Positions 1 through 16,079 of a stretch of 64,000 nucleotides of DNA are shown here, in pieces; positions within the stretch are counted from its first letter, which is position 1, and every line of letters starts with the position of its first letter. The translations under genes were made by a program, and so were the position numbers. The DNA comes from Candidatus Merdiplasma excrementigallinarum (GTDB lineage Bacteria; Bacillota; Clostridia; Lachnospirales; Lachnospiraceae). The notes below the pieces were generated by a model. The model was not told where the DNA came from. It was given only the letters and a program-made list of their open reading frames with translations, and ran no database searches. The DNA lies in the NCBI GenBank assembly GCA_018713435.1, contig DVOS01000036.1, positions 40,042-104,041 of the forward strand, given 5' to 3'.

Positions 1-1825
1 GTCCTTCTGTCACATCCGTCAGAGTGAACGTAAACTGTCCATCGCTCAGTGTCTGTCCCTTAAGATTCTTGGCCGCTTTCAGTGTTACCGAACCGCTGGC
101 TTTGAAATCATTGGTAAAGGTAGCACTCTCTACGCTTCCGCTTTCAGGTTTTACACCAAGATCATTCAGTACCTGGGTGATCACAGGAGCCGATACTGCC
201 AGTGTGCCGGTTCCATTATCAGTCACAGTCACTTCCACTTTATACTTAGCCTTTGAATAGGTCACGCCTTCAGCGCTTCCCGCCTCCTCTACTATATAGT
301 AGGTAAAGGTCTTTTCAGCCTCATAGCCGCCAGTAGCTTTAGCCAGATCATCCATGTCATAGGTAATCTGATCAAATGCAACCTCTGCGCTGTAAGTATT
401 GCTCTCAGCTGTGGCTGTTCCTGCCGGTACCTTTTTAGTCTGCAGCTCATTTTCTTCAGCATCCAGCAGCTGGAAGGTAAATTCATCTGCCGCAAAGTTT
501 CTTCCGGTCAGCACCTTCTTGGCTTTCAGCTCCACAGGACCTGTTGCCGCATAGCGGTTCTCGAAGGCTATGCTGCTGCCATCTCCGTCAACCTCTGTAA
601 TAGCAGGTGTCGCGGTGATTGTTCCGGTGCCGTTATCCTTCAGGCTGTACTCCACCTTAAATACGGACGTATCATTGGTGGTAGCATTGTTATCCGCAGC
701 GCCTTCCTCCTTCACATAGAGGATTACGGTTCCGGTGCCATTTTCCTTATCAGTAATATCGGCCTCCGTAAAGTAAACCGTGAAGCCAAATGTGCTCTCG
801 GTGGCATCCTGGTTCGCGCTCACAGATACCTGATTTTCGCTTACCCGTTTTGTAGGAGCTTTCTTTGCAGCCACATCTGCCGCATCGACTGCCAGCTGGT
901 TGCACCCTGCATCCGTATAAATACCGAATGTAAAGTCTCTCAGCGGGCCGCCGGTAACGGTCTTGCTGCCATTCAGGGTATCGGATCCACTGGAAGTATA
1001 GGTGTTGTCAAATACCACACCATCTTCCGCAGATGCCCAGGCTCCGTTCTCTCCGGTATTCGCCTTCACTTCCGCAGTCTCTGCATTCAGTGTTCCGTCT
1101 CCGTTGTCGGTTACGGTCACCTGCACCAGGAACTGCTGGCTGTTGTCCGCCAGGCCATTTCCTGCATTCAGATCCTCCTCGATCAGATAGTAATGGTCTC
1201 CTGTCTGATCAACCGTTTCGTTCTTGGTGTAGGAAATCTCATCAAATGTGAAGGTTCCCTTTGTCTTATCGGTGCTGTTTACCGCATTCTCTGCGGTATA
1301 GGTTGCTGCATTCGGCAGCGCTTCGCCGTCCTTATCCGTCTCCACCAGCTTGAACGTAAACTCTCCGTCCTTCTGGTATCTGCCGGTCAGGTTCTTATTG
1401 CCGGTCAGCTGCCATGTTCCGGCAGCTTCATAGCGATTGGTAAACTGTGCGCCATTCGGAGCTTCCGTACCATTCACACTGTAAGTCGTTTCAGCGACTG
1501 TCAGCTGGTTACCGGTCCACTGGGTGGTTACCTTCACGGTGTACACCGTTTCATCGTAGAGTATGCCGTCCTTCTTGTTCAGCACCTCTCCTTCATTTTC
1601 AGGATCTTCCGGGAGAACCTCTTTAATATAGAAGGTATACGGATTGTCCTCGCCTGCCACTCTGGTCAGTTCCACAGCGTCAAATTTTACATTGCCCTCG
1701 GCGTCATTGGCCTTAGTCTGCAGAAGCTTTCCTTCGTTGTTCAGCAGCTGGAACTCATATGCCCCTGCTGTCAGGTCTTTTTTCGTCAGATCCTTGCTGG
1801 CCTCCAGTTCAACCGTGGTCTTACG
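1..1825 (-). repeat. Tandem FctA/Spy0128-like pilin isopeptide-linkage domains (about five units, about 400-445 bp spacing)
   Basis: Units begin TVELEASKDLTKKDLTAGAYEFQLL (about 1822), TWQLTGNKNLTGRYQKDGEFTFKL (about 1425), SDTLNGSKTVTGGPLRDFTFGIY (about 990), PVELKAKKVLTGRNFAADEFTFQL (about 545), SVTLKAAKNLKGQTLSDGQFTFTL (about 105). Confidence 0.8.
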
Positions 1826-4800
1826 GATATTGGTTACCGTAACATCCTCAGTCTCCACTGTAGACTGTGTACCCGGAATACCCAGTACCCAGCCCGGGCA
1901 CTTGGTTGTTGTTCCATCTTGGTTAGCCACAGTAAGCGCTTCCGGCATTACCTCACCGATTTCAGTAGAACCTTCCGCCGTATTGCTGGTAGCCTCTGCG
2001 CCTGCCAGTTCATAGCCCGGCGCCGTGGAAGTTTCCACAATCACATAGGCCTTAAACCACAGCAGATCAGAGAAGGTCACCGTTCCATCTGAGCCGGTTT
2101 TTCCAGTCCATTTCGGCTGCATGCTGTTCAGGTCGGCATTCCGTGCCTCTTCATCTGAATTGAAGGGACCGTACACCGCAAAGGTTGCGCCCTCTACCGG
2201 TGTATTGGGATCATCCGCAGCCTCCTTGGTCACTACCAGATTTCGGTACAGCACCAGGCCCAGGTCCTTGGTGTGGTCATACACCTCATCTGTGGACGGA
2301 TGCAGGAAGAACCGCTCAGAATTCAGTGTAGTGGATGCTTTACTATTGGCTTCCCTGTAGTTGTTGTCTTTCGTCTCATTCTCATATGTGCTATACAGTT
2401 CCTCCAGATCCCGGGAATATCCTGCTCCTGCTTTTTCTGTTACCGCAAAGTTTCCGGACACATTCTGCAGATCCGCCACCAGTTTGTAGGTTGCCGGCGC
2501 GCTTCCCCTCAGCTTACCCACATTCAGGGACGCCACTCCGTCAGTCACTGTGTAGGCTTCGTTTTCATTGTCCGTCTTCAGGGTCGCAGGATCCAGCTTA
2601 TCAAAGGTGTACTCTGCTTTTGTAAGCCATGTCGTATCCGCTTTCGTATCATAGCCTACCTCCGTCGCAGTGCTGCCGCTGTATTTAACCAGCGTGATGC
2701 CGATATTATTCAGCATATCCTGTACAATCTTGTAGTTAAAGTAGCTGCCGCCGGTGCCATATACATACTCCCCATCCTGGCTGCCGTCATTGTTGGCGTC
2801 AATCCAGATATGGCCGCCCACCTTCACCTGTTCGGGAAGCAGGGTGGCGGAAACCACGTTGGAGCTGACATAGGATCCGGCATTGGACGCTTCGCTGGCT
2901 CCCCCGTCAGAAGCATCGCCGTCCGGTACGAAATTCCAGAAATGAGCCTGGAAATCGTTCATGGCGTTCTCAAAGGAGTCTTTTGCAAAAGCATCTTCAT
3001 CCGTATCGTACATTTCGGGTACGCTGGTACGGAACTCCACTACCAGCCGGTCGTCTGTCTCCAGAACAATGTCCTCCCGCAGCACTACCATGATCGCCGT
3101 GATCTGACTCTTCTCCGCGCCTGTCATGCCTTCCGTCAGAGTCTCCCATCCGGTAGGCGGAGCATCAAACTCAGCCGTATTTACCGCCGTGCGGTCAACA
3201 GCAGTTTCTGTTGTATAATATACCTTGTAATCACTTTCTGCCGCCAGCGTCTCTCCTGCTGCCTGCACAGAAGCTATGGAGAAAAACTCCAGTTTCCATT
3301 TACTGAAACGGGCTGTTCCATTGCCCATCGTATCATTCAACACAGGCAGAACATCTATCACTGCCAGGTGAGAGCGGTACTCCGAGGTGGACGTGTTTGT
3401 CACGGTCAGCCGGTAGTCTACCCATCCGCCGTTTCTTGTGGTACGGGCCAGACGGTTGGTCTGATAGCCGTCCGTATCCTTGCTGCCCTTGTTCTCCTTC
3501 AGCAGCGTAATGCCGGAGTTAGTAGTCCAGTTGGAGTCTGCGTAGTTCCAGAGATAACCGTACCCGGTCAGTCCCGCATTTTTCAGCAGGTCGGACAGTG
3601 CCTGTGCCCGGTCGGCTCCGATATCATTAATATCCTCTGCCACTTCCTCCAGTGTTCTGGCCCATCCGCCGTTTACATCCTTAAACGCGGAACCATTCTC
3701 GTTCTCCGCATCCACAATACCCTTGGTCTGTGTGGTGACAAACGCATAGTTCCTCATGGTATTTCCATAGTTTACCACGCCTCTGCCAACTTTTGCGGTC
3801 AGCTCCACTGTCACTGCTGCGCCCGGCTCCAGATCTCCGCTCAGCCGGATTATCGCAGCCGTATTCTCCTCCTTACTGGAGGCGGTCTGCTGCTGGATTG
3901 CCAGGTTACTTGCGCTGGTGCTTTCGGTTATTTTGGCAAAGCTATCGCCGGTCACGGTCACGCCCCGGGGCAGCAGATCAATAATCACCGGGTTAGGCAG
4001 ACTCTTTCCGCCTTTATCCGACTCGTTTGTCAGAGTGATCTCATACTTCACCGTTCCATCCAGGCTGACACTTCCGTATCCTTCTGCCGTCTTCTTGGAA
4101 ATAGTAATCCTGGGAGCGTCTTTCTCCTTAAAGCTGTTAGTCGCCACACTGTTCCGATGAATAGTTGTAGCCTCTACAGCCTGCTCTCCCTTTTCATTCC
4201 ACGTTCTGTAGGTCAGGGTAGCCTCCGCCGTATTTTCTATTTTGCGGATCACAGGAGCATAGGTCTGATCTCCGGTTTCTCCGTCAGTCTCGCCCTCGTC
4301 TGCACCTGTATTCTGATCCGGCGTCTCTTCGCCGGCATCCTGCCCGGTCTGGTCGTACAGCAGTACATCCAGGCTGACTGTGCCCGGCTTAAAGTCCGCG
4401 CCCAGCGCGTAGCCCTTCCCGCCGCCAAGGTCGCTGCTGTAGTCGATGCGGAAGCTCTGGATTCTGGCGTCAGCAGGAACGTTTGCATCCTGAAGTGTAA
4501 CCTTCCTGTCTGTTCCTCCATCCGATACCAGGATCTTTTGACTTGGATAATGATTTCCTTCAAAGTCAGTAAACGTAACGGTAGCGTACACATTCGCACT
4601 GGTGCCATCATCCGTATAGTGTTCCGTCTTGTGGGTTGCCTGTCCCAGCTCTATACTGGTAATGGAATACTGGCCTTTCAGGTCGATCTCGCCGCCGTCT
4701 TTGTCATAAGCGGTCAGTCCCGTATCCTCCAGCACAAAGCTGTCCAGGGGATAATTGGTGTTGGTCACCACAGGCGTTATGCTATAGGTAATCGTCTGGT

Positions 4801-7800
4801 TTCCTTCGTACAGACTGGGAAGATCCTCTGTTATGTTGGAGGTCTTCGTCAGAGTCAGGTCAACCTTGCCCAGCACATTATGCAGAGCGCATACTTCCTG
4901 CTCCTTCTGGTACTCTTCAATCTGTACTACTTTATACCAGACTACCCGCTTATCGCCCTTGATGATCGTGTCATATTTTTTCCCTTCGCCGGTCTCATGG
5001 CCTCTGGTCTCTGTCTCCACCACCAGGTAAGTCTTGCCCTGTTCCACGTCAAACATTTTGAAGGTGGTTTTACCATCGCCATCCAGCTGATCTGTCCAGC
5101 CCTGGCCATTCTCGATCAGGTTATTCGCAACCGCATAGGTGCTGATCTGATCATCCGTCAGAGACTGACCTTCTGTCAGTCCTGCTTCCTCCGGGATCTC
5201 ATAGACGGACACATAGGCTTCCGGTACAATGCCGGAGTTGCTTACATCGTCCTTTGTCACCTTCAGGCTCACCTTGGGAACATTGTAAACCTGGAATGTA
5301 TAGTCTCCGCTGATCAGATTTCCGTCCGGATTCAGCACATAGCCGGTTATTCCTTCTGCCACCTCAGTTGAAGCTGACAGCTCCGTTTCACCGTTCCATA
5401 CGCTGTCCACACCGGAATATCCCTCAACCGGCAGTTCCTCTGCCAGCGCGTACTTCTGGTCCTCACCGCCGGGCACATAGAAGGAAACCGTACCGTCAGT
5501 ACCGTCAGTACCGGTCGTCCCCTGAAGTTCCGTATCGGTGGACCATGTCGTTCCATCGCTGCTGTAGTACAGAGTAAAGCCTACGCCATCCAAAGGCTTT
5601 GCCTCTGCGCCGTGACGGTTGTCGAATTTGGTCACCGTGATGGTCACGCCCCTGGTATTGGGCATAATCAAAGCATCTCGCAGTTCATCTTCCGTCACGT
5701 TTTCCTTCTCTCGTGCCCCGTCATCATACTCTGTATGCACTCCGGGCCTCAGCGTTACGGTAATCGGCTCTTTGGACTTCTCATAGCCTGCGGGAGGCTG
5801 GGTCTCTGTAATCGTATACTCAGTGGCCTCCGTACTATACAGCATTACCTCAGCTGTGTATACGCCGGTTCCCACACCCTGGCTGGTGGTGATTTCTTCC
5901 AGACTAACCGTCTTGTCAGGGGCATCACTGGGCGCGATGGTAAACGCAGCGCCTGTCAGCGCGGGAGCCGTAGGATCGTCCTTATCAACCTTCAGGATCG
6001 TCACTTTGGCCTTCAGGTAGGTATTGGTGACGGATACCTGCAGGGTCCGGCCCGCATAATCCTTGGTTATTGTAATCGGGTATCTGCCATCGTCATTTGC
6101 CTCAATGTCGATAGTCGTATCTTTTTCGCTGTTCTCTCCCTTCAGAACCAGGGTGATGTTGGTCAGGGCATAGCCCGTTTTCGTTACCTCCTCCAGGTAG
6201 TACGTCTCGCCCAGAGCAAGGTTTTCAAACGTCCCTGCCACGCCTTCTGTAATTGTGACTCCATCCGCATCTACCTTGTTTCCGCTTTCATCATACAGGT
6301 TGAAGGTAAATTTATCCTCTGCGGGAGCTGCCAGATCAGAATCTGCCGCATCCGCCACAGTCTTGGTCACTTCCAGCTTGGCTTTGGGCTGATCCGCCAC
6401 AGTGAAGGAAGCCGCGTAGCTGTCATTTTCCTTCACATATCTGGTGTCCGTCCCCTCTGTTACTTCTACCTTTACATCCAGTCCGCCGGTGATCACTGTG
6501 TACTGGCCTTCCCCGTTCAGCATATAGCCTGTGGGGGCCTTTGTCTCCACAATATAGTAGATACCAGGCTCCAGATTGCCTTCGGTAGCCGTTCCGTTAT
6601 CTTTGGTGGATACAGTCTTATAGAATTCCCATCCATCCGGCAGGGAGGACGTATTCAGATTTCCGGCGCCAATCACTGCGGAATCTGTCATCGAAGTAAA
6701 CAGTTTCCGGTAAATGGTAAACTCAGTGCCTGCAAAACCGGTAGCCGTAGCTGAGTTCTTGGCGTCTTTTTTCTGGATCGTCAGGCTGCCCAGCTTCGGG
6801 TTCTTCACCGTCAGAGTTCCATCAAAGCCGTAGTCAGACAGTTTCTTCACCGCCGTCACCACCGGCTCACCGGCTTTAGTGCCTGTGGTAATTCCAAGCT
6901 CAATCCCTTCCCCTGACGGTACAAACTCAGCAATATCATCAGAAACTCCGTCCTGACCCGCAATGCCTGTCAGGTAATCGGTCAGGAAGCTGATGGAATA
7001 TCCGGACCCGCTCTCTGTCAGGTAGTAGGTGCCGCTGTCAATGGCAGTAAACTCTGCCACTCCGCTGCCATTGGTCAGCTTTGTGACTTCTGTTCCCTTC
7101 CCGTTTACAGGATTCAGCGTAAAGCTCCATCCGCTTACAGCGCTGCCCTTCATGTCTTCCTTTTTGATAGAGAGAGAAACCTTCTTCGGGTTGTACATAC
7201 TGATATGAAGGTTCTCATCCGTCACAGTAAAGTATCTGGCCGTTTCCGCCGTGCCGTACAGGCTCTCATAACCGGCGCTGCCTGTGCTGTCTCCGTTCTC
7301 AATAACCCGGTACTGGCCGCTCACCAGACCGTTGAGGAAACTGTAACTTCCGGAGTTCTGTGTTGTAAAGGTGGCTTTTCCGCCCTCTTTCTCACCCAGA
7401 TAGCAGAGATTGATATAGTCATACGCTCTCCACGTATCATCTTCCGTTGTGGTCGGATCGCCTGTATCCAGCCTCTCCAGCGTCATTGTCACGCCAGCCA
7501 GAGGCTGCCGGCCCGCATAATTCTTCTCAAAGTATCCATCCAGTTCTTCCGCTGTCTTCTCGGTGTTGACACCGTTTTCCGGCTCATAGCCGTACTTGCT
7601 GATGGTAACAGCGTAGTTATCCACGGGACGGTTCACCAGACGTACCTTATTCTCGTTGGAAGCCCAGTAAATACCTGCCGTTACATCCTCATCATCTGAC
7701 AGCTTCGGATTATCGCCCGCCTCGATAAAGTAGGCGTCATTCATCTCTACGGTGTCCTGCGCGCCTTCTTCTCCATTGTCAAGAGCCGCTTTGTCAAAAA

Positions 7801-10639
7801 CGACTTTCATATAGTGGGGCGTTACATCCAGGTTATAGCCTGCCGGAGCGGAAACCTCCCGCAGCGCCATCCGCACGATAATATCCTCGTCATTTTCGCC
7901 ACCTACTGTTGCAATACCTGCATCCAGCAGCGCGCTGGCAATCTTCGCATTCTTCTCAGCTTTTGTTTCAGCACTGTCGTCTTCTTCTATGGCGATGCCC
8001 AGCACATCTCTGGCGTAGTCCTCTCTGATCCACTCGTAGTACAGGAAGGACACAGCCTGAGCTGTCGGGGCTACATTATCATCTCCCTCATTTTCCAGAC
8101 CGGTGGTCACCCGGTCTACCTGATAGAGCAGACTTCCATTTTCATCTGTCAGCCAGATTTCAAAGGTTACATTTCCGAGAGGTTTGTAAACTTCCGTTTC
8201 GTTCTCCTGATCCGCCGCCCATTTGTTCAGGCGGATTCTGGCCGCATGAATATTGCCGGGCCCGGTGAGAGGATCGTTGGGTTTCTTATACTCGGTAACG
8301 GTATCCTTTATATACACCGCCGTAGCATTAAGATCGTTGGCAGATCCGTTCACATACTCTGTCGTATCACTGTGGAACAGCACCGGATTCTGGCCCTCCG
8401 TAATCTTATAGCCCGGAGCGGCTTTGGTCTCATAGAGCCAATATACCACGTTGTCGGCTGCCTCCAGAATATCCGTCGCGAACCAGCCGTCCACAGGATT
8501 GCCATCCTTGTCCGTCATGGTTCCGCTGGTATAATTTCCCACAACCGAATAGCCGCCTGTTTCTGCTGCCGCTGCTTTCGCATCAAAGGTCAGCCTGGCT
8601 CCGTCTGCCACCCCGTCCAGCACCTGCTTGTACAGAACAAACTGGCTGCCGTCGACCGCCTTTCTGCCGTTGGGCGTTTCAGGCGTTATATCAACCTGGT
8701 ATTTCTTATCAGCCTCCGTATCATCAAGATAGTTGGCATACTTGTACACCTGAATCTGTGTCCAGTGCTTCTCATTAAGCATATCTTTTCGCACTGTCAG
8801 ACCGTCGGTATGCTCTCTGGTGACATAATTGTAATTATTTAATTCATCTTCAGAAATTGTATCAGGTACTTCCGCCGGAATGGTGCCCTTGGCCGGCTCC
8901 AGGTAGGTATAGATACCGTCCTCCGGCATGCCTACCTCCACCGCGATGTAATCCAGATTGCGGTCCAGGCCGTCAAACAGCACCTCGCCCACCTGATTCG
9001 TGGTCAGGTAATTAACCAGCTCATCCTTCTCATTTCTCACCTGCACCAGCGTATATACACTGGTTTCATCGTCCGGGTCTTTCGCGTAGAGAGCGATGTC
9101 CACGCCGGAGAGCAGATAGGATTTACCGGTAAACTGGAACTCCCAGATATTCTTATAGGATTTCACTACCGTAAAGGTAGCGTTCTTCTTATTGACAATT
9201 TCAATGTCTTTGTTGTCCTCGCCGCAGGTAGTTACCGTAGCGTTTGCCTCCAGGGTCACCTCGATGGCTTCCCGGTTGAGGGAGTAGGTAGCGGGTGCTT
9301 CGATCTCTTTAATCACATAGGTGATCTTCTTTCCCTGTTCATCATAAACAGGCAGATCCTTAAATTCAAATGTACCGCTTCCGGCAACGGTTGTAACCGT
9401 ATCAAGTACATTTTCTTCGTTCGCTTCCTCACCTTTCTTCCAGATTCCGATGGTGGCTCCGCCCAGGGGCTTGTCATCTTCGTCCACCTTCAGTCCCTTC
9501 ACGCTTCCCGCGTTCTTCAGGTTCTGGATAGTGACAGCCTGCGCGTCGGCAGAGCTTGCCTCTGCCACGGTAATCTTAAAGTAGAACGCGCCTTCCGCAT
9601 CTTTATAGCCGTCCTTGTACAGAGCCGCATAGTCGCCATTGGGATCATTGGGATTCAGGGCGTCTGCCATGCCATCCGCCGTCTGCTCGCCTGTCTCTTT
9701 CAGATAATAGGTGCCCGCCGGAATCTGCAGTTCCTCTCCGGAGGTCAGCGTCACTTCCTTGCTGTCATAGTCTTTTACTCTTTCTAGATTCGTTAATATT
9801 CCGTCCGCGCCTTCTGTGGCCGTATACACCTCAAAGGTAACGCCGTTCACTACTTCGCTGGCAGTGCCGTTTACTACCTGCTTGGTCACCTTCACTTTGG
9901 GATCGGGCCGGTTCTGGATCGTAACCGTCTTCACATCCGCGGAAGAGGATACCGCAGACAGATCCACTGATTTTGAAGCATCTACCGGCTTGTACGTCTG
10001 AGGCCATTCTGTCTCGGTAACCGTATACTTTCCAGGATCCACCACATACAGCAGACCTTCTTCGGGAATCTCTTTATTATTAATAGTTTCCGCTTTATCA
10101 GCTACTGACAGATTTCCACCCTCTGCCGTCACCAGCTGGCCGCTTATTGCCTTACCCTCTGCGTCCGTCACTGTAACCTTAGAGCCCTTTACAAAACCAT
10201 CTGTATAGAGATATTCTTTCGTAATCTTCAGCAGGGCTTTCTTCTCCACGTTGGTGACCGTGGTAGAGTGGCTGAAAGTAACACCATCCGCAAATGTGTA
10301 GGCCTTCACAGCCTGCACGTCTTTTCCGTCAATCTTTACGGTTTCCACTTCCGATGTGGGTTCCAGCACATAGCTGCCGCTGTTCGTTCCGGTCTCCACC
10401 CACCAGTAAGTGACAGCCTGCCCACCTACTGCATTTATATCCAGATTGGTGGCCGTAATCTTGCCGTTTTCATCTGTGGTATAAGGCTCTTTATTTACCT
10501 TTGTAAGCTGGCCCGTTCCCACCTGTCTGTACAGGTCAAAGGTAAAGCCTGCAGCCGTATCATCCGTTACCTTGCTGCCGGTACTGAAGGTCACAAGTTT
10601 CTTGGTCAGCTCCAGTTCTCCGGTGCGGCTGTTTTTCAT
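1..10639 (-). CDS. C-terminal portion of a giant Cna-B/SpaA-type and FctA-like isopeptide adhesin; continues past the left edge and is in frame with the upstream ORF after a TAG
   Basis: Reverse-strand translation is open from 10639 to position 2 in the frame of ORF 10640..13468. It starts MKNSRTGELELTKKLVTFSTG and contains many repeats such as 'TYYLTESGSGYSISF', 'YYIVETKAPTGYMLNGEG', 'LEVTKTVADAADSDLAAPAEDKFTFNLYDESGNKV'. It is absent from the ORF track because it has no stop inside the window. Confidence 0.93.
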   Translation of the reverse strand, partial: MKNSRTGELELTKKLVTFSTGSKVTDDTAAGFTFDLYRQVGTGQLTKVNKEPYTTDENGKITATNLDINAVGGQAVTYWWVETGTNSGSYVLEPTSEVETVKIDGKDVQAVKAYTFADGVTFSHSTTVTNVEKKALLKITKEYLYTDGFVKGSKVTVTDAEGKAISGQLVTAEGGNLSVADKAETINNKEIPEEGLLYVVDPGKYTVTETEWPQTYKPVDASKSVDLSAVSSSADVKTVTIQNRPDPKVKVTKQVVNGTASEVVNGVTFEVYTATEGADGILTNLERVKDYDSKEVTLTSGEELQIPAGTYYLKETGEQTADGMADALNPNDPNGDYAALYKDGYKDAEGAFYFKITVAEASSADAQAVTIQNLKNAGSVKGLKVDEDDKPLGGATIGIWKKGEEANEENVLDTVTTVAGSGTFEFKDLPVYDEQGKKITYVIKEIEAPATYSLNREAIEVTLEANATVTTCGEDNKDIEIVNKKNATFTVVKSYKNIWEFQFTGKSYLLSGVDIALYAKDPDDETSVYTLVQVRNEKDELVNYLTTNQVGEVLFDGLDRNLDYIAVEVGMPEDGIYTYLEPAKGTIPAEVPDTISEDELNNYNYVTREHTDGLTVRKDMLNEKHWTQIQVYKYANYLDDTEADKKYQVDITPETPNGRKAVDGSQFVLYKQVLDGVADGARLTFDAKAAAAETGGYSVVGNYTSGTMTDKDGNPVDGWFATDILEAADNVVYWLYETKAAPGYKITEGQNPVLFHSDTTEYVNGSANDLNATAVYIKDTVTEYKKPNDPLTGPGNIHAARIRLNKWAADQENETEVYKPLGNVTFEIWLTDENGSLLYQVDRVTTGLENEGDDNVAPTAQAVSFLYYEWIREDYARDVLGIAIEEDDSAETKAEKNAKIASALLDAGIATVGGENDEDIIVRMALREVSAPAGYNLDVTPHYMKVVFDKAALDNGEEGAQDTVEMNDAYFIEAGDNPKLSDDEDVTAGIYWASNENKVRLVNRPVDNYAVTISKYGYEPENGVNTEKTAEELDGYFEKNYAGRQPLAGVTMTLERLDTGDPTTTEDDTWRAYDYINLCYLGEKEGGKATFTTQNSGSYSFLNGLVSGQYRVIENGDSTGSAGYESLYGTAETARYFTVTDENLHISMYNPKKVSLSIKKEDMKGSAVSGWSFTLNPVNGKGTEVTKLTNGSGVAEFTAIDSGTYYLTESGSGYSISFLTDYLTGIAGQDGVSDDIAEFVPSGEGIELGITTGTKAGEPVVTAVKKLSDYGFDGTLTVKNPKLGSLTIQKKDAKNSATATGFAGTEFTIYRKLFTSMTDSAVIGAGNLNTSSLPDGWEFYKTVSTKDNGTATEGNLEPGIYYIVETKAPTGYMLNGEGQYTVITGGLDVKVEVTEGTDTRYVKENDSYAASFTVADQPKAKLEVTKTVADAADSDLAAPAEDKFTFNLYDESGNKVDADGVTITEGVAGTFENLALGETYYLEEVTKTGYALTNITLVLKGENSEKDTTIDIEANDDGRYPITITKDYAGRTLQVSVTNTYLKAKVTILKVDKDDPTAPALTGAAFTIAPSDAPDKTVSLEEITTSQGVGTGVYTAEVMLYSTEATEYTITETQPPAGYEKSKEPITVTLRPGVHTEYDDGAREKENVTEDELRDALIMPNTRGVTITVTKFDNRHGAEAKPLDGVGFTLYYSSDGTTWSTDTELQGTTGTDGTDGTVSFYVPGGEDQKYALAEELPVEGYSGVDSVWNGETELSASTEVAEGITGYVLNPDGNLISGDYTFQVYNVPKVSLKVTKDDVSNSGIVPEAYVSVYEIPEEAGLTEGQSLTDDQISTYAVANNLIENGQGWTDQLDGDGKTTFKMFDVEQGKTYLVVETETRGHETGEGKKYDTIIKGDKRVVWYKVVQIEEYQKEQEVCALHNVLGKVDLTLTKTSNITEDLPSLYEGNQTITYSITPVVTNTNYPLDSFVLEDTGLTAYDKDGGEIDLKGQYSITSIELGQATHKTEHYTDDGTSANVYATVTFTDFEGNHYPSQKILVSDGGTDRKVTLQDANVPADARIQSFRIDYSSDLGGGKGYALGADFKPGTVSLDVLLYDQTGQDAGEETPDQNTGADEGETDGETGDQTYAPVIRKIENTAEATLTYRTWNEKGEQAVEATTIHRNSVATNSFKEKDAPRITISKKTAEGYGSVSLDGTVKYEITLTNESDKGGKSLPNPVIIDLLPRGVTVTGDSFAKITESTSASNLAIQQQTASSKEENTAAIIRLSGDLEPGAAVTVELTAKVGRGVVNYGNTMRNYAFVTTQTKGIVDAENENGSAFKDVNGGWARTLEEVAEDINDIGADRAQALSDLLKNAGLTGYGYLWNYADSNWTTNSGITLLKENKGSKDTDGYQTNRLARTTRNGGWVDYRLTVTNTSTSEYRSHLAVIDVLPVLNDTMGNGTARFSKWKLEFFSIASVQAAGETLAAESDYKVYYTTETAVDRTAVNTAEFDAPPTGWETLTEGMTGAEKSQITAIMVVLREDIVLETDDRLVVEFRTSVPEMYDTDEDAFAKDSFENAMNDFQAHFWNFVPDGDASDGGASEASNAGSYVSSNVVSATLLPEQVKVGGHIWIDANNDGSQDGEYVYGTGGSYFNYKIVQDMLNNIGITLVKYSGSTATEVGYDTKADTTWLTKAEYTFDKLDPATLKTDNENEAYTVTDGVASLNVGKLRGSAPATYKLVADLQNVSGNFAVTEKAGAGYSRDLEELYSTYENETKDNNYREANSKASTTLNSERFFLHPSTDEVYDHTKDLGLVLYRNLVVTKEAADDPNTPVEGATFAVYGPFNSDEEARNADLNSMQPKWTGKTGSDGTVTFSDLLWFKAYVIVETSTAPGYELAGAEATSNTAEGSTEIGEVMPEALTVANQDGTTTKCPGWVLGIPGTQSTVETEDVTVTNIRKTTVELEASKDLTKKDLTAGAYEFQLLNNEGKLLQTKANDAEGNVKFDAVELTRVAGEDNPYTFYIKEVLPEDPENEGEVLNKKDGILYDETVYTVKVTTQWTGNQLTVAETTYSVNGTEAPNGAQFTNRYEAAGTWQLTGNKNLTGRYQKDGEFTFKLVETDKDGEALPNAATYTAENAVNSTDKTKGTFTFDEISYTKNETVDQTGDHYYLIEEDLNAGNGLADNSQQFLVQVTVTDNGDGTLNAETAEVKANTGENGAWASAEDGVVFDNTYTSSGSDTLNGSKTVTGGPLRDFTFGIYTDAGCNQLAVDAADVAAKKAPTKRVSENQVSVSANQDATESTFGFTVYFTEADITDKENGTGTVILYVKEEGAADNNATTNDTSVFKVEYSLKDNGTGTITATPAITEVDGDGSSIAFENRYAATGPVELKAKKVLTGRNFAADEFTFQLLDAEENELQTKKVPAGTATAESNTYSAEVAFDQITYDMDDLAKATGGYEAEKTFTYYIVEEAGSAEGVTYSKAKYKVEVTVTDNGTGTLAVSAPVITQVLNDLGVKPESGSVESATFTNDFKASGSVTLKAAKNLKGQTLSDGQFTFTLTDVTEG
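2770..2822 (-). other. SdrD B-like segment within the adhesin
   Basis: Translated VGGHIWIDANNDGSQDGEY matches the SdrD B-type 'G..VW.D.N.DG.QD..E' signature. Confidence 0.6.
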
Positions 10640-13468
10640 CTAAACCTGCGTCACATTCGCAGTGCCAGTGCCTTCCTTGCCCTTCAGAGTCACGGTTTCG
10701 GAATAGACTGCACCGCTGGAAACAAGTTCCGTTTGCAGTTCTCCTTTCTCATTATAGGTTTCTGCTCCGCTCCATCCTGCGGGAAGGGTTTCCTTAAACC
10801 GGTACTGTATCGCCGTGCCGTCCTCGGCGTAAACCGGAACAGTCTCGGTAACAGCGCCGTTGTTCAGCTCCACTGCTTTATAATCGTCCCAGTTCTTTCC
10901 GCCATCCGCGGAGCTTTGCAGAACGAACTGATTCTTGAAGGTATCATTCAGAGAAGCGCCTACATTCGCATATTCACCTTTGAAATAATTCCAATACTGC
11001 TTCTGCAGACGAATCTGGGCGGTGTTGTGAATATTCGTATATTCCTTTTCCGTAACCTGATACTCTGTAACCGTTACGGCCACGGGTGTGCTATCCACCT
11101 TGTATCCTTCCGGCGCAGCTGTCTCTGCCAGCCAGTAGTCTCCGGGCAGCAGATTGTCAAATTTCAGAACGCCGGTTGTGCCGGTTTTGCCAGTCCATAC
11201 ATTTTCACCTGCGGCAGTCTTGTCTGCTTCGGCGTTATCAGATGTCTTTTTATACAGCTCATAGGAAACATTTGCAAGGGCCGCCGTCGCGCCATCCTTT
11301 GTACCCTCTTTGGTAATCTGAATCGCACCCAGCTTTTCTTTGTTGGTAAAGGTCAGGGACTTGCCGCCCTCCTCTTTTCCATTCACTTCTTTCACGCTGG
11401 TCAGCGTATAACTGCCGTCAGTAGGTTCCTCCGATACCGATACGAATTCCGTATTATCAGGAACACCGCTTTCTTCTATTTTATAATTGCCTGCATCCAG
11501 GTACACGGTAAGGGACCCGTTGCTGCTCACATTCCCCCCGGCGTTCTCTTCCGGCGACGGATTAATGATGATCTTGCCGTCAGTCGTTACAGACGTATAG
11601 GTGCCATCATCGTTTTTCTTATATAAGGTAACGTTGGTGTCCTCTGACTTACCTTCAACCCGGGTCACCTGGAAGGTGGCAGGGCCGGTAACGTAAGCGT
11701 TCTGTTCTCCGCCCTTCTTGTACTCACCTTTATCCATGCCGTCATAGCCCTGGATCTTTTTGGTAATGGTCAGCTTCGCGGGCTGGGTTACCTCTCCGAT
11801 TTCTACAGAATCGCCGGATTCCGCTGTGGTTGTCTCCTGGCCGCCAGCAAGCTGATAGGTCAGCGTAACCGTATTTTCTGCGGTCAGTTTCTCCTGATTC
11901 GCATCTGTGTAGTTCGCTACAAAGGAATCGTAGGAATAGGTAATCTCCAGTTTGTAAGAAGAATAATAGGGCGCGCTGTCCTCCACATTATTCAAGTCAT
12001 GTCCCGCACAGGTATCATAAGGCAGAGACACATTTGCAAGCTGATCTTCCACAGAGGTTGTTTCCGCAGTGAAAGTCTTCGCCGCATCCAAATCAAACTC
12101 CGGTGTGATCACTGCCTTGGAGGCCGCCAGAGGGTTCCCATTCCGATCCAGTACGCCGGGCACATCATGAAGGGTAATAGTAGTTCCCGCAAAAGGCGTC
12201 CGGCCATTTTGTGTATAGTTGCTGGGATCTGAAATCAAATTTTTATTATTAGCGATCATTCCCACTTCGATCTGGTAATACACGGTTACCGTACCGGCGG
12301 CGCGGTCTATGGTAACACCAGCAGGATCTCCGCTCGTTCCGCCCTGGTCTTCGTCCACCGTTTTTTTCACAATCCACTCGTCCGGTGAGGTCGTGGTCAG
12401 ATCCGGAATCTCCGGTGTTTTGCTTACCGTCTGCGAGTAGTTCTTCAGCACCTCGCTTTTTCCGTCAAATTTATTTATGACATCAAAGTTAGCGCTCATG
12501 GAAACCGCATTCTCAGGGAAGCTGTATGTAGTTCCAATGGCTTTTGTACCGTTTTTATCCGCCAGAGCGGTAATGGTAAAGGATTGATTGCTGTCAGAGA
12601 CGGCATCCATCGTCCCTTTTATCTTGAAAGTCCAGGCGTTGTTTCCAGCCGCCGTTATGTCCTCGATGTTCCCGTTATCCACCTTGATCTTGTTTATCAG
12701 ATCCTGCGTGATAGTCAGGCCTTCCGGCAGCTGAACAGTAACGGAAATTCCCTTGTATGTATCAATGAGAGACTGGGGCGGATTGTAGTCAAACAGGGGA
12801 GAGCCTTTTGTCCCATATGTTACCCTGTAGGTAATCTGGTCCCCCGTCATGATCGTTCCGTTTTCTCCCCCTGCTGTCTGTACCATGGACACGTCAAGCA
12901 TATCCAGGTAAGTATCAGATGAAGGATTTCCGAAGTAGGATTCCGCCATATCCTGCAGGTCCTGCAGGTCCGTTTTCTGTTCTTCATCCTCCCCCTCATT
13001 CAGAAGATTGATCTCATTCTCTTCCTCCTGCTCCTGGGGTTCGGTCTCGGTCAGGGCCATAAGGTCTTCTCTTACGTAGCCCTTTGTGCCCTCCGCTGTC
13101 TGCACCTCATACCATTTCAGGTCGTCCCCCGGAATGGTCAGCAGGTTCACTGCCGTCACAGCCGTATCCTTTGCCAGAGTAGCAAGGGAATTGCTCTCTG
13201 TGGTGGGCTGTTCCCGCAGGTTCACCGTGTCAGCGGTGATGATGCCCTGTTGGTTAATCACCTTTGTCTCCGTAGGTGTGAAGGCGCTGGTTTCGTCCCC
13301 TCCCCCGACATTTTCCGGATCTGTTTCCCCGGGCGTTGCTGCCGGAGCATTATTCTGGATGGAATATCCCACAATGTCCGCAAATACGCTCATGGTCTGA
13401 GTGGAACAGATCATTGACAGTGCCAGCACCACGGCCAGCAGTCTTTGCCATACTTTTCTCTTACCCAT
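10640..13468 (-). CDS. N-terminal portion of the giant adhesin: signal peptide, SH3-like domain, SpaA/Cna-B domains; ends at an in-frame TAG
   Basis: N-terminus MGKRKVWQRLLAVVLALSMICSTQTMSVFA (signal peptide), SH3b-like 'IITADTVNLREQPTTESNSLATL...KGYVREDL', Cna-B motif 'GDYWLAETAAPEGYKV'. RBS-like AAGGAGAACAAT before ATG at 13468. Confidence 0.93.
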   Translation of the reverse strand: MGKRKVWQRLLAVVLALSMICSTQTMSVFADIVGYSIQNNAPAATPGETDPENVGGGDETSAFTPTETKVINQQGIITADTVNLREQPTTESNSLATLAKDTAVTAVNLLTIPGDDLKWYEVQTAEGTKGYVREDLMALTETEPQEQEEENEINLLNEGEDEEQKTDLQDLQDMAESYFGNPSSDTYLDMLDVSMVQTAGGENGTIMTGDQITYRVTYGTKGSPLFDYNPPQSLIDTYKGISVTVQLPEGLTITQDLINKIKVDNGNIEDITAAGNNAWTFKIKGTMDAVSDSNQSFTITALADKNGTKAIGTTYSFPENAVSMSANFDVINKFDGKSEVLKNYSQTVSKTPEIPDLTTTSPDEWIVKKTVDEDQGGTSGDPAGVTIDRAAGTVTVYYQIEVGMIANNKNLISDPSNYTQNGRTPFAGTTITLHDVPGVLDRNGNPLAASKAVITPEFDLDAAKTFTAETTSVEDQLANVSLPYDTCAGHDLNNVEDSAPYYSSYKLEITYSYDSFVANYTDANQEKLTAENTVTLTYQLAGGQETTTAESGDSVEIGEVTQPAKLTITKKIQGYDGMDKGEYKKGGEQNAYVTGPATFQVTRVEGKSEDTNVTLYKKNDDGTYTSVTTDGKIIINPSPEENAGGNVSSNGSLTVYLDAGNYKIEESGVPDNTEFVSVSEEPTDGSYTLTSVKEVNGKEEGGKSLTFTNKEKLGAIQITKEGTKDGATAALANVSYELYKKTSDNAEADKTAAGENVWTGKTGTTGVLKFDNLLPGDYWLAETAAPEGYKVDSTPVAVTVTEYQVTEKEYTNIHNTAQIRLQKQYWNYFKGEYANVGASLNDTFKNQFVLQSSADGGKNWDDYKAVELNNGAVTETVPVYAEDGTAIQYRFKETLPAGWSGAETYNEKGELQTELVSSGAVYSETVTLKGKEGTGTANVTQV

Positions 13469-13541
13469 ATTGTTCTCCTTTCTCTATATCCCGCTATCTA
13501 TAATAATCAATCATGATTTCTCTGATTGTATTTTCCCTCTG

Positions 13542-13748
13542 TCATCCTGTACCGTCCTCCCCCGGCCCGGTACCACGCAGCTTCGTCTCCAGGGCGCTGT
13601 CCATCAGCTTCATCAGTTCCAGGGCGCTCCGGAATTTCTGTGTCCTGTTCTGATCCGCCCACACGACCTCACCCTGCCAGGTGGCGTTTTCGTAATGCTG
13701 CACATGGACGACGAAAGTTCCCAAGTCCCTTCGCTTGTCCTGTTTCAT
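13542..13748 (-). CDS. Small hypothetical protein with WQG/FRSALEL motif (paralogue 1)
   Basis: 68 aa: TFVVHVQHYENATWQGEVVWADQNRTQKFRSALELMKLMDSAL. Same motif occurs in the 13902 and 15591 ORFs. Confidence 0.75.
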   Translation of the reverse strand: MKQDKRRDLGTFVVHVQHYENATWQGEVVWADQNRTQKFRSALELMKLMDSALETKLRGTGPGEDGTG

Positions 13749-13901: not shown

Positions 13902-14351
13902 TTATCTGGCGCTGTCAAATAATTTTAACAACTCCAGGGCGCTTCGGAAGGTCTGGAGCCGCTGCCGCTCCGCCCAGAAGATCTCTCCCTGCCAGGTGGC
14001 GTTCTGCCGGTACTGCACGTGCACCAGAAAGGTGGCGCATCTTCCCTGCTGCCCGGCCACCTCCTCGGCCGATACTGCGGGGGTTTTCTCCCCCCGCCCT
14101 GTCTCCGGGTTCTTCTTTCCGTAGCTTCTCATCTCCACGGAGGCCTGGGGATAACCGATCCGGTCCATCAGTTCCTCCATCAGGGTCAGAAGCTGATATT
14201 CATTCTGAAACAGGCCCGGCTCCTTTCCGTACCGGTGGTACAGGCGGCCGCTGCTGCCTGCCGCCCCTCTCTCGTCGATGCAGACGCACATCAGGTCAGG
14301 CGCCGTCATGCCTCTAATGAAATGCTCACTCATGCTCCCTCTCCTTCTCAT
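13902..14351 (-). CDS. Small hypothetical protein with WQG/FRSALEL motif (paralogue 2)
   Basis: 149 aa, C-terminus TFLVHVQYRQNATWQGEIFWAERQRLQTFRSALELLKLFDSAR. Overlaps the stop of the upstream regulator by 4 bp (translational coupling). Confidence 0.8.
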   Translation of the reverse strand: MRRRGSMSEHFIRGMTAPDLMCVCIDERGAAGSSGRLYHRYGKEPGLFQNEYQLLTLMEELMDRIGYPQASVEMRSYGKKNPETGRGEKTPAVSAEEVAGQQGRCATFLVHVQYRQNATWQGEIFWAERQRLQTFRSALELLKLFDSAR

Positions 14352-15631
14352 CCCTTATCCCAGATGTCTGCCGAGCCGGAAAAACTGCGGCCGGTCTCCG
14401 GTATGTCCGGGCTGATCTCCGCCACAGAGGCCACGTAGAAGTCCACCTGGAACTCGTTCCTTCTCATTCTGCGCCGGAAGGCCCCGCCGATCCTGGCAGA
14501 TACCTTGCTGCAGTTTTCCTGGTTGATGCCGGAAAGCATCACCAGATACTGGCCCACATTGTACCGGGTGTAGAAGTCTCCCCGCCGCAGGGACTCCCGG
14601 ATGGCGTCCATCAGCATCCCGGACACTTCCCGGTTCCGCTCGTCCTCCCCCAGGACGGGGCCCTTGCTGTTTCGCAGGGTGCACAGCATAATGTAAACCG
14701 ACGTGCCGTTTCTCTCCATCATCCGGCTGATGATGTGGTAAATATCCACAAAGCTGGGGAAGGTGCAGAAGTAGGCTCCCTTCACCATCTCCCGCTCGAT
14801 GAGGCCCTGCTTGATATCCTCAATGGCTCCCGCCGACTGGGAAATCCGCTCGCTCATGAACCGGAACCGCTCCAGCATCTGGGGAGAGGGGGGCAGGCTC
14901 AGCTCATCGAAGAACAGCCTGGTGGTGGTCTGGTAAATCTCCATGGCTTCCTGGTAGCGGGCCATGGCGATCAGGCTGTCGATCCGCCAGATCTGCCATT
15001 CCTCAAAGGGATAAATGGCGGACGCCTGGGTGGTCAGCTGATAGATCTCCTCAAACTCTTCCTTCTCTTTCAGCCATCCGCACAGCTCCTCCAAACAGGA
15101 AAAGTACAGGTTCCGGTAATGGATGTTCCGCACGGTGACCCAGTCCTCGCCGATCATATCCGGCAGGAACTCTCCCGCGTAGAGGCCGCAGGCTTCCCGG
15201 TAAAATTCCATCTTTTTCTCAGTCTCTTCCTCCCGCTGCCCGGCCAGGACTTTCTCCTCAAACCGGCAGCAGTCGATTTCCACAGGGATCTCGGGATCCC
15301 AACGGCACATACCCTTCTGTATGTTGATGTAATTGCTCTCCGGCAGCCCTGCCGCTTTCAGCTGGCGGCGCAGGCGGAACAGGGTGTTGTTCAGGCTGCC
15401 GTTCCTGTTTTCCACATCCTCCCGGCCGTACAGGCCGTCGATGAGGCTGGTCTTGGCGATGCCGTCCTCCTGATGGAGCAGCACCATCTGTAAAAGCTGG
15501 GTTGTCTTGGAGACGCTGCTGCGGTCCAGGATCAGCTCTTTTCCCGCATACAGGAGGGAAAATCCGCCCAGCATTTTGACAATTAATCGATTATCCGGCA
15601 TATTCTCCTCCTCGTTTCTGCAATTCTTCAA
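14348..15631 (-). CDS. BTAD-domain (SARP-like) transcriptional regulator
   Basis: LIVKMLGGFSLLYAGKELILDRSSVSKTTQLLQMVLLH, 'NGSLNNTLFRLRRQLKAAGL', and a BTAD helical region 'MEFYREACGLYAGEFLPDM...IYPFEEWQIWRIDSLIAMARYQEAMEIYQ'. Start may be at MPDNRLIVK. Confidence 0.85.
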   Translation of the reverse strand: MKNCRNEEENMPDNRLIVKMLGGFSLLYAGKELILDRSSVSKTTQLLQMVLLHQEDGIAKTSLIDGLYGREDVENRNGSLNNTLFRLRRQLKAAGLPESNYINIQKGMCRWDPEIPVEIDCCRFEEKVLAGQREEETEKKMEFYREACGLYAGEFLPDMIGEDWVTVRNIHYRNLYFSCLEELCGWLKEKEEFEEIYQLTTQASAIYPFEEWQIWRIDSLIAMARYQEAMEIYQTTTRLFFDELSLPPSPQMLERFRFMSERISQSAGAIEDIKQGLIEREMVKGAYFCTFPSFVDIYHIISRMMERNGTSVYIMLCTLRNSKGPVLGEDERNREVSGMLMDAIRESLRRGDFYTRYNVGQYLVMLSGINQENCSKVSARIGGAFRRRMRRNEFQVDFYVASVAEISPDIPETGRSFSGSADIWDKG

Positions 15632-16079
15632 TCTTTTCCATCATATATCCCATCAGCTCCAGCACGCTGCGGAACTGGTAAACCCCGGCGTCCCCGGAGA
15701 AGTGTACGCTTCCCTGCCAGCTCACGTTCTGCCTGTAGCGCAGCGTGAGAAATACGGCAAAGAGTTCTCCCTTCATGGCGCCGAATTCCTTAAATTCATG
15801 GTAAAACCGGACTCCTTTTTCCTCTTCCCCCGACGGGCCGCCCTCCGGGCGAAGGGTACGCCTGGCGGGGCTGGCTTCCGGAAAGCCCAGGCTGTCGCAC
15901 AGCCTGTCAATCTTCAGGATCATATCCCCCATCCCCCGGAAGGGAAGCGGATTTTCCAGGCAGCAGTGGCAGATCAGGCCGGCTGGTTCCAGCCCCTCCA
16001 GCTTCTGCACGCAGATTTTTATGTCGTTCATAACTATTTTCAGGGAAAGCGGGGCAGCCGCTTCTGTCCGACTGTTCAT
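15591..16079 (-). CDS. Small hypothetical protein with WQG motif (paralogue 3)
   Basis: 162 aa: FAVFLTLRYRQNVSWQGSVHFSGDAGVYQFRSVLELMGYMMEKI. Overlaps the regulator start. Confidence 0.75.
   Translation of the reverse strand: MNSRTEAAAPLSLKIVMNDIKICVQKLEGLEPAGLICHCCLENPLPFRGMGDMILKIDRLCDSLGFPEASPARRTLRPEGGPSGEEEKGVRFYHEFKEFGAMKGELFAVFLTLRYRQNVSWQGSVHFSGDAGVYQFRSVLELMGYMMEKIEELQKRGGEYAG

Follow-up and report, generated by a model that had tools for sequence, protein, structure and literature searches.

Does the in-frame TAG in a giant surface protein gene cut one protein in two, or does it mark the border of two genes, and what kind of stop is it? The window, meaning the whole 64,000-nucleotide stretch of DNA that was analysed, lies inside a 104-kb contig of the draft genome (2.07 Mb in 78 contigs, 73% complete) of a Lachnospiraceae-type bacterium. 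Read from the sequence, the TAG occupies positions 10640-10642 on the minus strand and is codon 943 of its frame, where the minus-strand letters are ...GTG ACG CAG GTT TAG ATG AAA AAC AGC CGC ACC GGA... The upstream ORF (10640..13468, minus; 942 aa) ends in ...TGTANVTQV at the TAG, and the same frame resumes with ATG AAA AAC AGC CGC ACC, the ATG (10637-10639, minus) standing directly 3′ of the stop. The shared frame has 942 codons before the TAG and 5,194 after it. The downstream frame is open for all of those 5,194 codons, running well past the left end of the window (in-window part 2..10639, minus) to an end outside it, at L003:15055 (G000:C3). Counted from its ATG at 13468 through to the last stop, the whole frame measures 6,137-6,138 codons. 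Codon 943 is its sole internal stop, and the 18.4-kb gene has no second lesion besides it.

The whole frame is a giant (about 6,100 amino acid) sortase-type fibrous surface protein, with a putative adhesive role suggested by its domain families. At the gene's own start is a ribosome-binding site, AAAGGAG (13475..13481, minus; duplex energy -9.0), and the N-terminus of the upstream ORF, MGKRKVWQRLLAVVLALSMICSTQTMSVFA, is signal-peptide-like by eye and by hydropathy over about residues 1-31 (13376..13468, minus). Pfam finds an SH3_3 domain and SpaA-type domains in the upstream half, whose last domain is truncated. The downstream frame carries SpaA/Cna_B-like and FctA-like repeats: a Pfam scan of 1,880 downstream residues gave twelve SpaA stretches, and nine FctA (Spy0128-like) stretches turned up in the final 1,647. 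PF17802 and PF12892 score above cut-off in several stretches apiece, so that tandem SpaA/FctA isopeptide-type domains are present, and NCBIfam recognizes pilin isopeptide-linkage repeats (TIGR03786). A search of solved structures gave no significant match. At its C-terminus the frame has the sortase-type motif NVKTG followed by hydrophobic residues and a basic terminus; against the anchor profile PF00746 it reaches 14.1, short of the cut-off of 20. The genome has one sortase match (PF04203) above cut-off.

A signal peptide and a C-terminal sortase motif thus both exist, but the TAG parts them and they do not share one open frame. The upstream half has the signal peptide and no anchor; the downstream half has the anchor and no export signal, its N-terminus not being hydrophobic. 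This agrees with the earlier note, which had assigned a signal peptide to the upstream part only. The same note had called the downstream half anchorable, a term that holds for its NVKTG tail but only formally, since a product with no export signal would not reach sortase.

The surroundings of the gene can be described briefly. Upstream of it are three small paralogous proteins (13551-13748, 13902-14351 and 15591-16079, all minus) with a common C-terminal pattern, Asn-x-x-WQG ... FRSxLEL. The two of the three that were scanned had no Pfam match above cut-off, and none of the three was found in the related loci examined. Among them, just upstream of the adhesin, is a BTAD-type (SARP-like) transcriptional regulator (14348-15631, minus; PF03704, 48 bits), which has distant relatives in three same-genus genomes and may control the adhesin. 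Directly behind the adhesin gene is a gene for an Rpn-family recombination-promoting nuclease/putative transposase (L003:13607-14659, minus). About 17 kb past the left end of the window, toward the 3′ end region of the adhesin, is a secreted-looking 310-aa protein with a long run of (A/V)P(Q/A/V)TE units (APQTEAPQTE...; L003:12016-12948, minus).

Whether the two halves belong to one protein was judged from homologues. A first scan with the 80 aa that follow the stop brought up no relative, a 380-aa query from just downstream of the stop had no match in 60 relatives, and twelve other genomes of the same genus gave no orthologue, their matches to the N-terminal half being short SH3 or SpaA stretches. 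With X in place of the stop, a query run against 397 family genomes gave two key homologues, and three more came from searching 392 genomes of the order with a profile. These five genomes, from two other genera of the family, span the stop position with one uninterrupted frame each, of 4,032 codons in G233 and 5,182-5,204 codons in G356, G587, G703 and G648; four of the five belong to one genus and are mutually close, so the set amounts to about two independent comparisons. The giant SpaA/Cna_B-repeat proteins of G356 (a record of Clostridium sp. 12(A)) and G233 (Lachnospiraceae MAG MO.6_7) are collinear with the window gene at about 26-28% identity across thousands of residues and end in LPKTG or LPSTG tails; unlike the window gene, they have no stop at the matching point. 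The G356 protein (5,170 aa) starts with a signal-like N-terminus and ends in an LPKTG tail. Its residues 488-1230 align with the upstream half of the window gene, and its residues 1247-3954 align with the downstream half, beginning at the first residue of that half. The halves therefore map back to back, and in relatives they sit side by side within a single protein. An origin as two ancestral genes was ruled out, the relatives being fused.

A six-sequence alignment, in which the stop of the window gene was entered as Gln purely as a placeholder, locates the cut more closely. In CnaB-type domains an isopeptide bond from a lysine to an Asn/Asp joins the first and last strands, with the assistance of a glutamate (PMC5487036). 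Three columns of the alignment are invariant: Lys823 (11000..11002), Glu893 (10790..10792) and Asn946 (10631..10633), all on the minus strand, which are candidates for the isopeptide lysine, the catalytic acid and the isopeptide asparagine of a domain with approximate limits 10598..11026 (minus). The stop lies after Lys823 and Glu893 and three codons before Asn946, and a stop so placed cuts the domain within its last strand. Judged from the alignment and the published CnaB layout (PMC5487036), the TAG is thus inside an isopeptide-type domain and not between domains; the earlier note had instead taken its position for what looked like a normal last-strand-to-next-domain junction. Were this a natural gene end, it should lie 3′ of the Asn. 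The broader claim of that note, that the TAG interrupts one protein, is borne out by the uninterrupted homologues, by the adjoining of the two halves on one protein and by the splitting of the Lys/Glu/Asn set; comparison of this codon across the two other genera gave no stop in five of five genomes.

It remains to say what the TAG does. Among 296 ORFs of 150 aa or more, picked mechanically from 414 kb of the genome, 48 terminate in TAG, which upholds the earlier argument, from the use of TAG as a genuine stop elsewhere, against global amber recoding. Programmed or leaky readthrough at this one codon, which would yield a short secreted form together with small amounts of anchored full-length protein, would hold the downstream frame under selection and so suits its being fully open, but we consider it very improbable. 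TAG is an ordinary terminator here, and a stop at this point is kept in no homologue. No tRNA with a CTA anticodon is among those found in the 73%-complete draft, where many isoacceptors are missing, and the best profile match to a pyrrolysyl-tRNA synthetase reaches 29.5 bits against a cut-off of 178, and 13 of 14 control genomes show weak PylS-like matches of similar size. The RNA fold around the stop is no better than that of shuffles (z -0.40), and no Rfam family matches there. One literature search turned up no description of an adhesin of this sort with stop-codon readthrough, although this does not prove that none exists. That the TAG is leaky on purpose, so that the secreted short form is accompanied by a little of the anchored 6,137-residue protein, seems to us more doubtful still. 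In a stranger version both pieces would be made and rejoined by an isopeptide bond, much as in an engineered catcher/tag pair, since the cut separates the Lys and Glu of the first piece from the Asn of the second; this is very unlikely because the second piece has no export signal. Restart at the ATG, yielding two separate proteins, draws on the direct adjacency of TAG and ATG and ranks among the least credible readings, given a weak ribosome site at that ATG (duplex energy -3.3, against -9.0 at the true start), a second product that could not be exported, a split lying within a domain and a single protein in the relatives. The adjacency itself looks like chance, since about 0.7% of the codons one step from a stop in this gene have ATG next (4.9% have any start codon) and 38% of its in-frame ATGs are as good in ribosome-site energy.

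The main rival is that the stop is a consensus error or mixed-strain artefact of the assembly and the organism's own gene is intact. We think this unlikely while giving it more weight than any of the translational schemes: the genome is a fragmented draft and the remainder of the 18.4-kb frame is perfectly open, but repeat collapse is unlikely because the region is unique in the genome save for a 26-base partial match and has no long repeats, and a typical indel error is unlikely because the frame is kept. A base substitution in a mixed-strain consensus is possible. Surface adhesins are often targets of phase variation, and reversible on/off switching of this one through the TAG codon would be in keeping with that; nevertheless we give it hardly any credence, as the stop has no simple-sequence tract, inverted repeats and long direct repeats are absent nearby, and the genome has no second template copy beyond the 26-base match. 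A diversity-generating retroelement or recombination switch was ruled out on the same absence of template copy and repeats. Some indication of age comes from the rest of the frame, in which 2,085 of about 55,233 possible single-base changes would give a stop. The lack of a second stop limits unconstrained drift since the lesion to less than about 79 substitutions (0.4%) at 95%, a bound that counts nonsense changes only. This leaves three options: a young stop, an unreal one, or continued production of the protein. Among the explanations that the earlier note had listed, nonsense mutation and assembly or consensus error remain, while readthrough, on/off variation and stop-start reinitiation are left without positive evidence.

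We consider it probable that the TAG is a recent premature amber stop, an ordinary loss-of-function allele in a giant sortase-type surface protein gene. Translation would end at codon 943, and the 942-aa N-terminal piece would be exported but, because it lacks a wall anchor and its last domain is incomplete, would be shed or degraded; the 5,194-codon remainder would not be made in useful amount and, for want of a signal peptide, would have no route of export. The strain would thus be without the adhesin, and the TAG allele is possibly a polymorphism in the strain's population. Counting against such a nonsense allele is the intact frame over 18.4 kb on both sides of the TAG, which also fits an unreal stop or a protein still made; a suppressor tRNA is likewise still conceivable, many tRNA genes being absent from the draft. 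The distinction matters for annotation, as gene callers would give a 942-aa secreted protein and a separate signal-less 5,194-codon protein for what is a single giant surface protein with an interruption. Should the stop be real, the locus is one more natural loss of a costly surface protein via a single nonsense change.

Loss of the anchor from Gram-positive surface proteins through premature stops or truncations is already documented (PMC3268755, PMC5417603). The scl1.3 allele of Scl1 in group A Streptococcus has a premature stop known from many isolates; as in the window gene, one stop codon takes the wall-associated part off a Gram-positive surface protein with repeats, and the truncated form would be secreted (PMC3268755). 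The cases differ in that Scl1 is a short collagen-like protein and its allele comes from many isolates, whereas the window gene encodes a 6,137-codon SpaA/FctA-repeat protein in one draft genome. Listeria monocytogenes has truncated forms of the surface proteins InlA and Lmo0514, truncated Lmo0514 being without its LPXTG anchor (PMC5417603). The likeness to the window gene is that of truncated surface proteins; the domains are other ones, and the population data and invasion assays belong to the Listeria case. The stop in the window is most likely a further example of this ordinary, documented kind and not a new translation mechanism.
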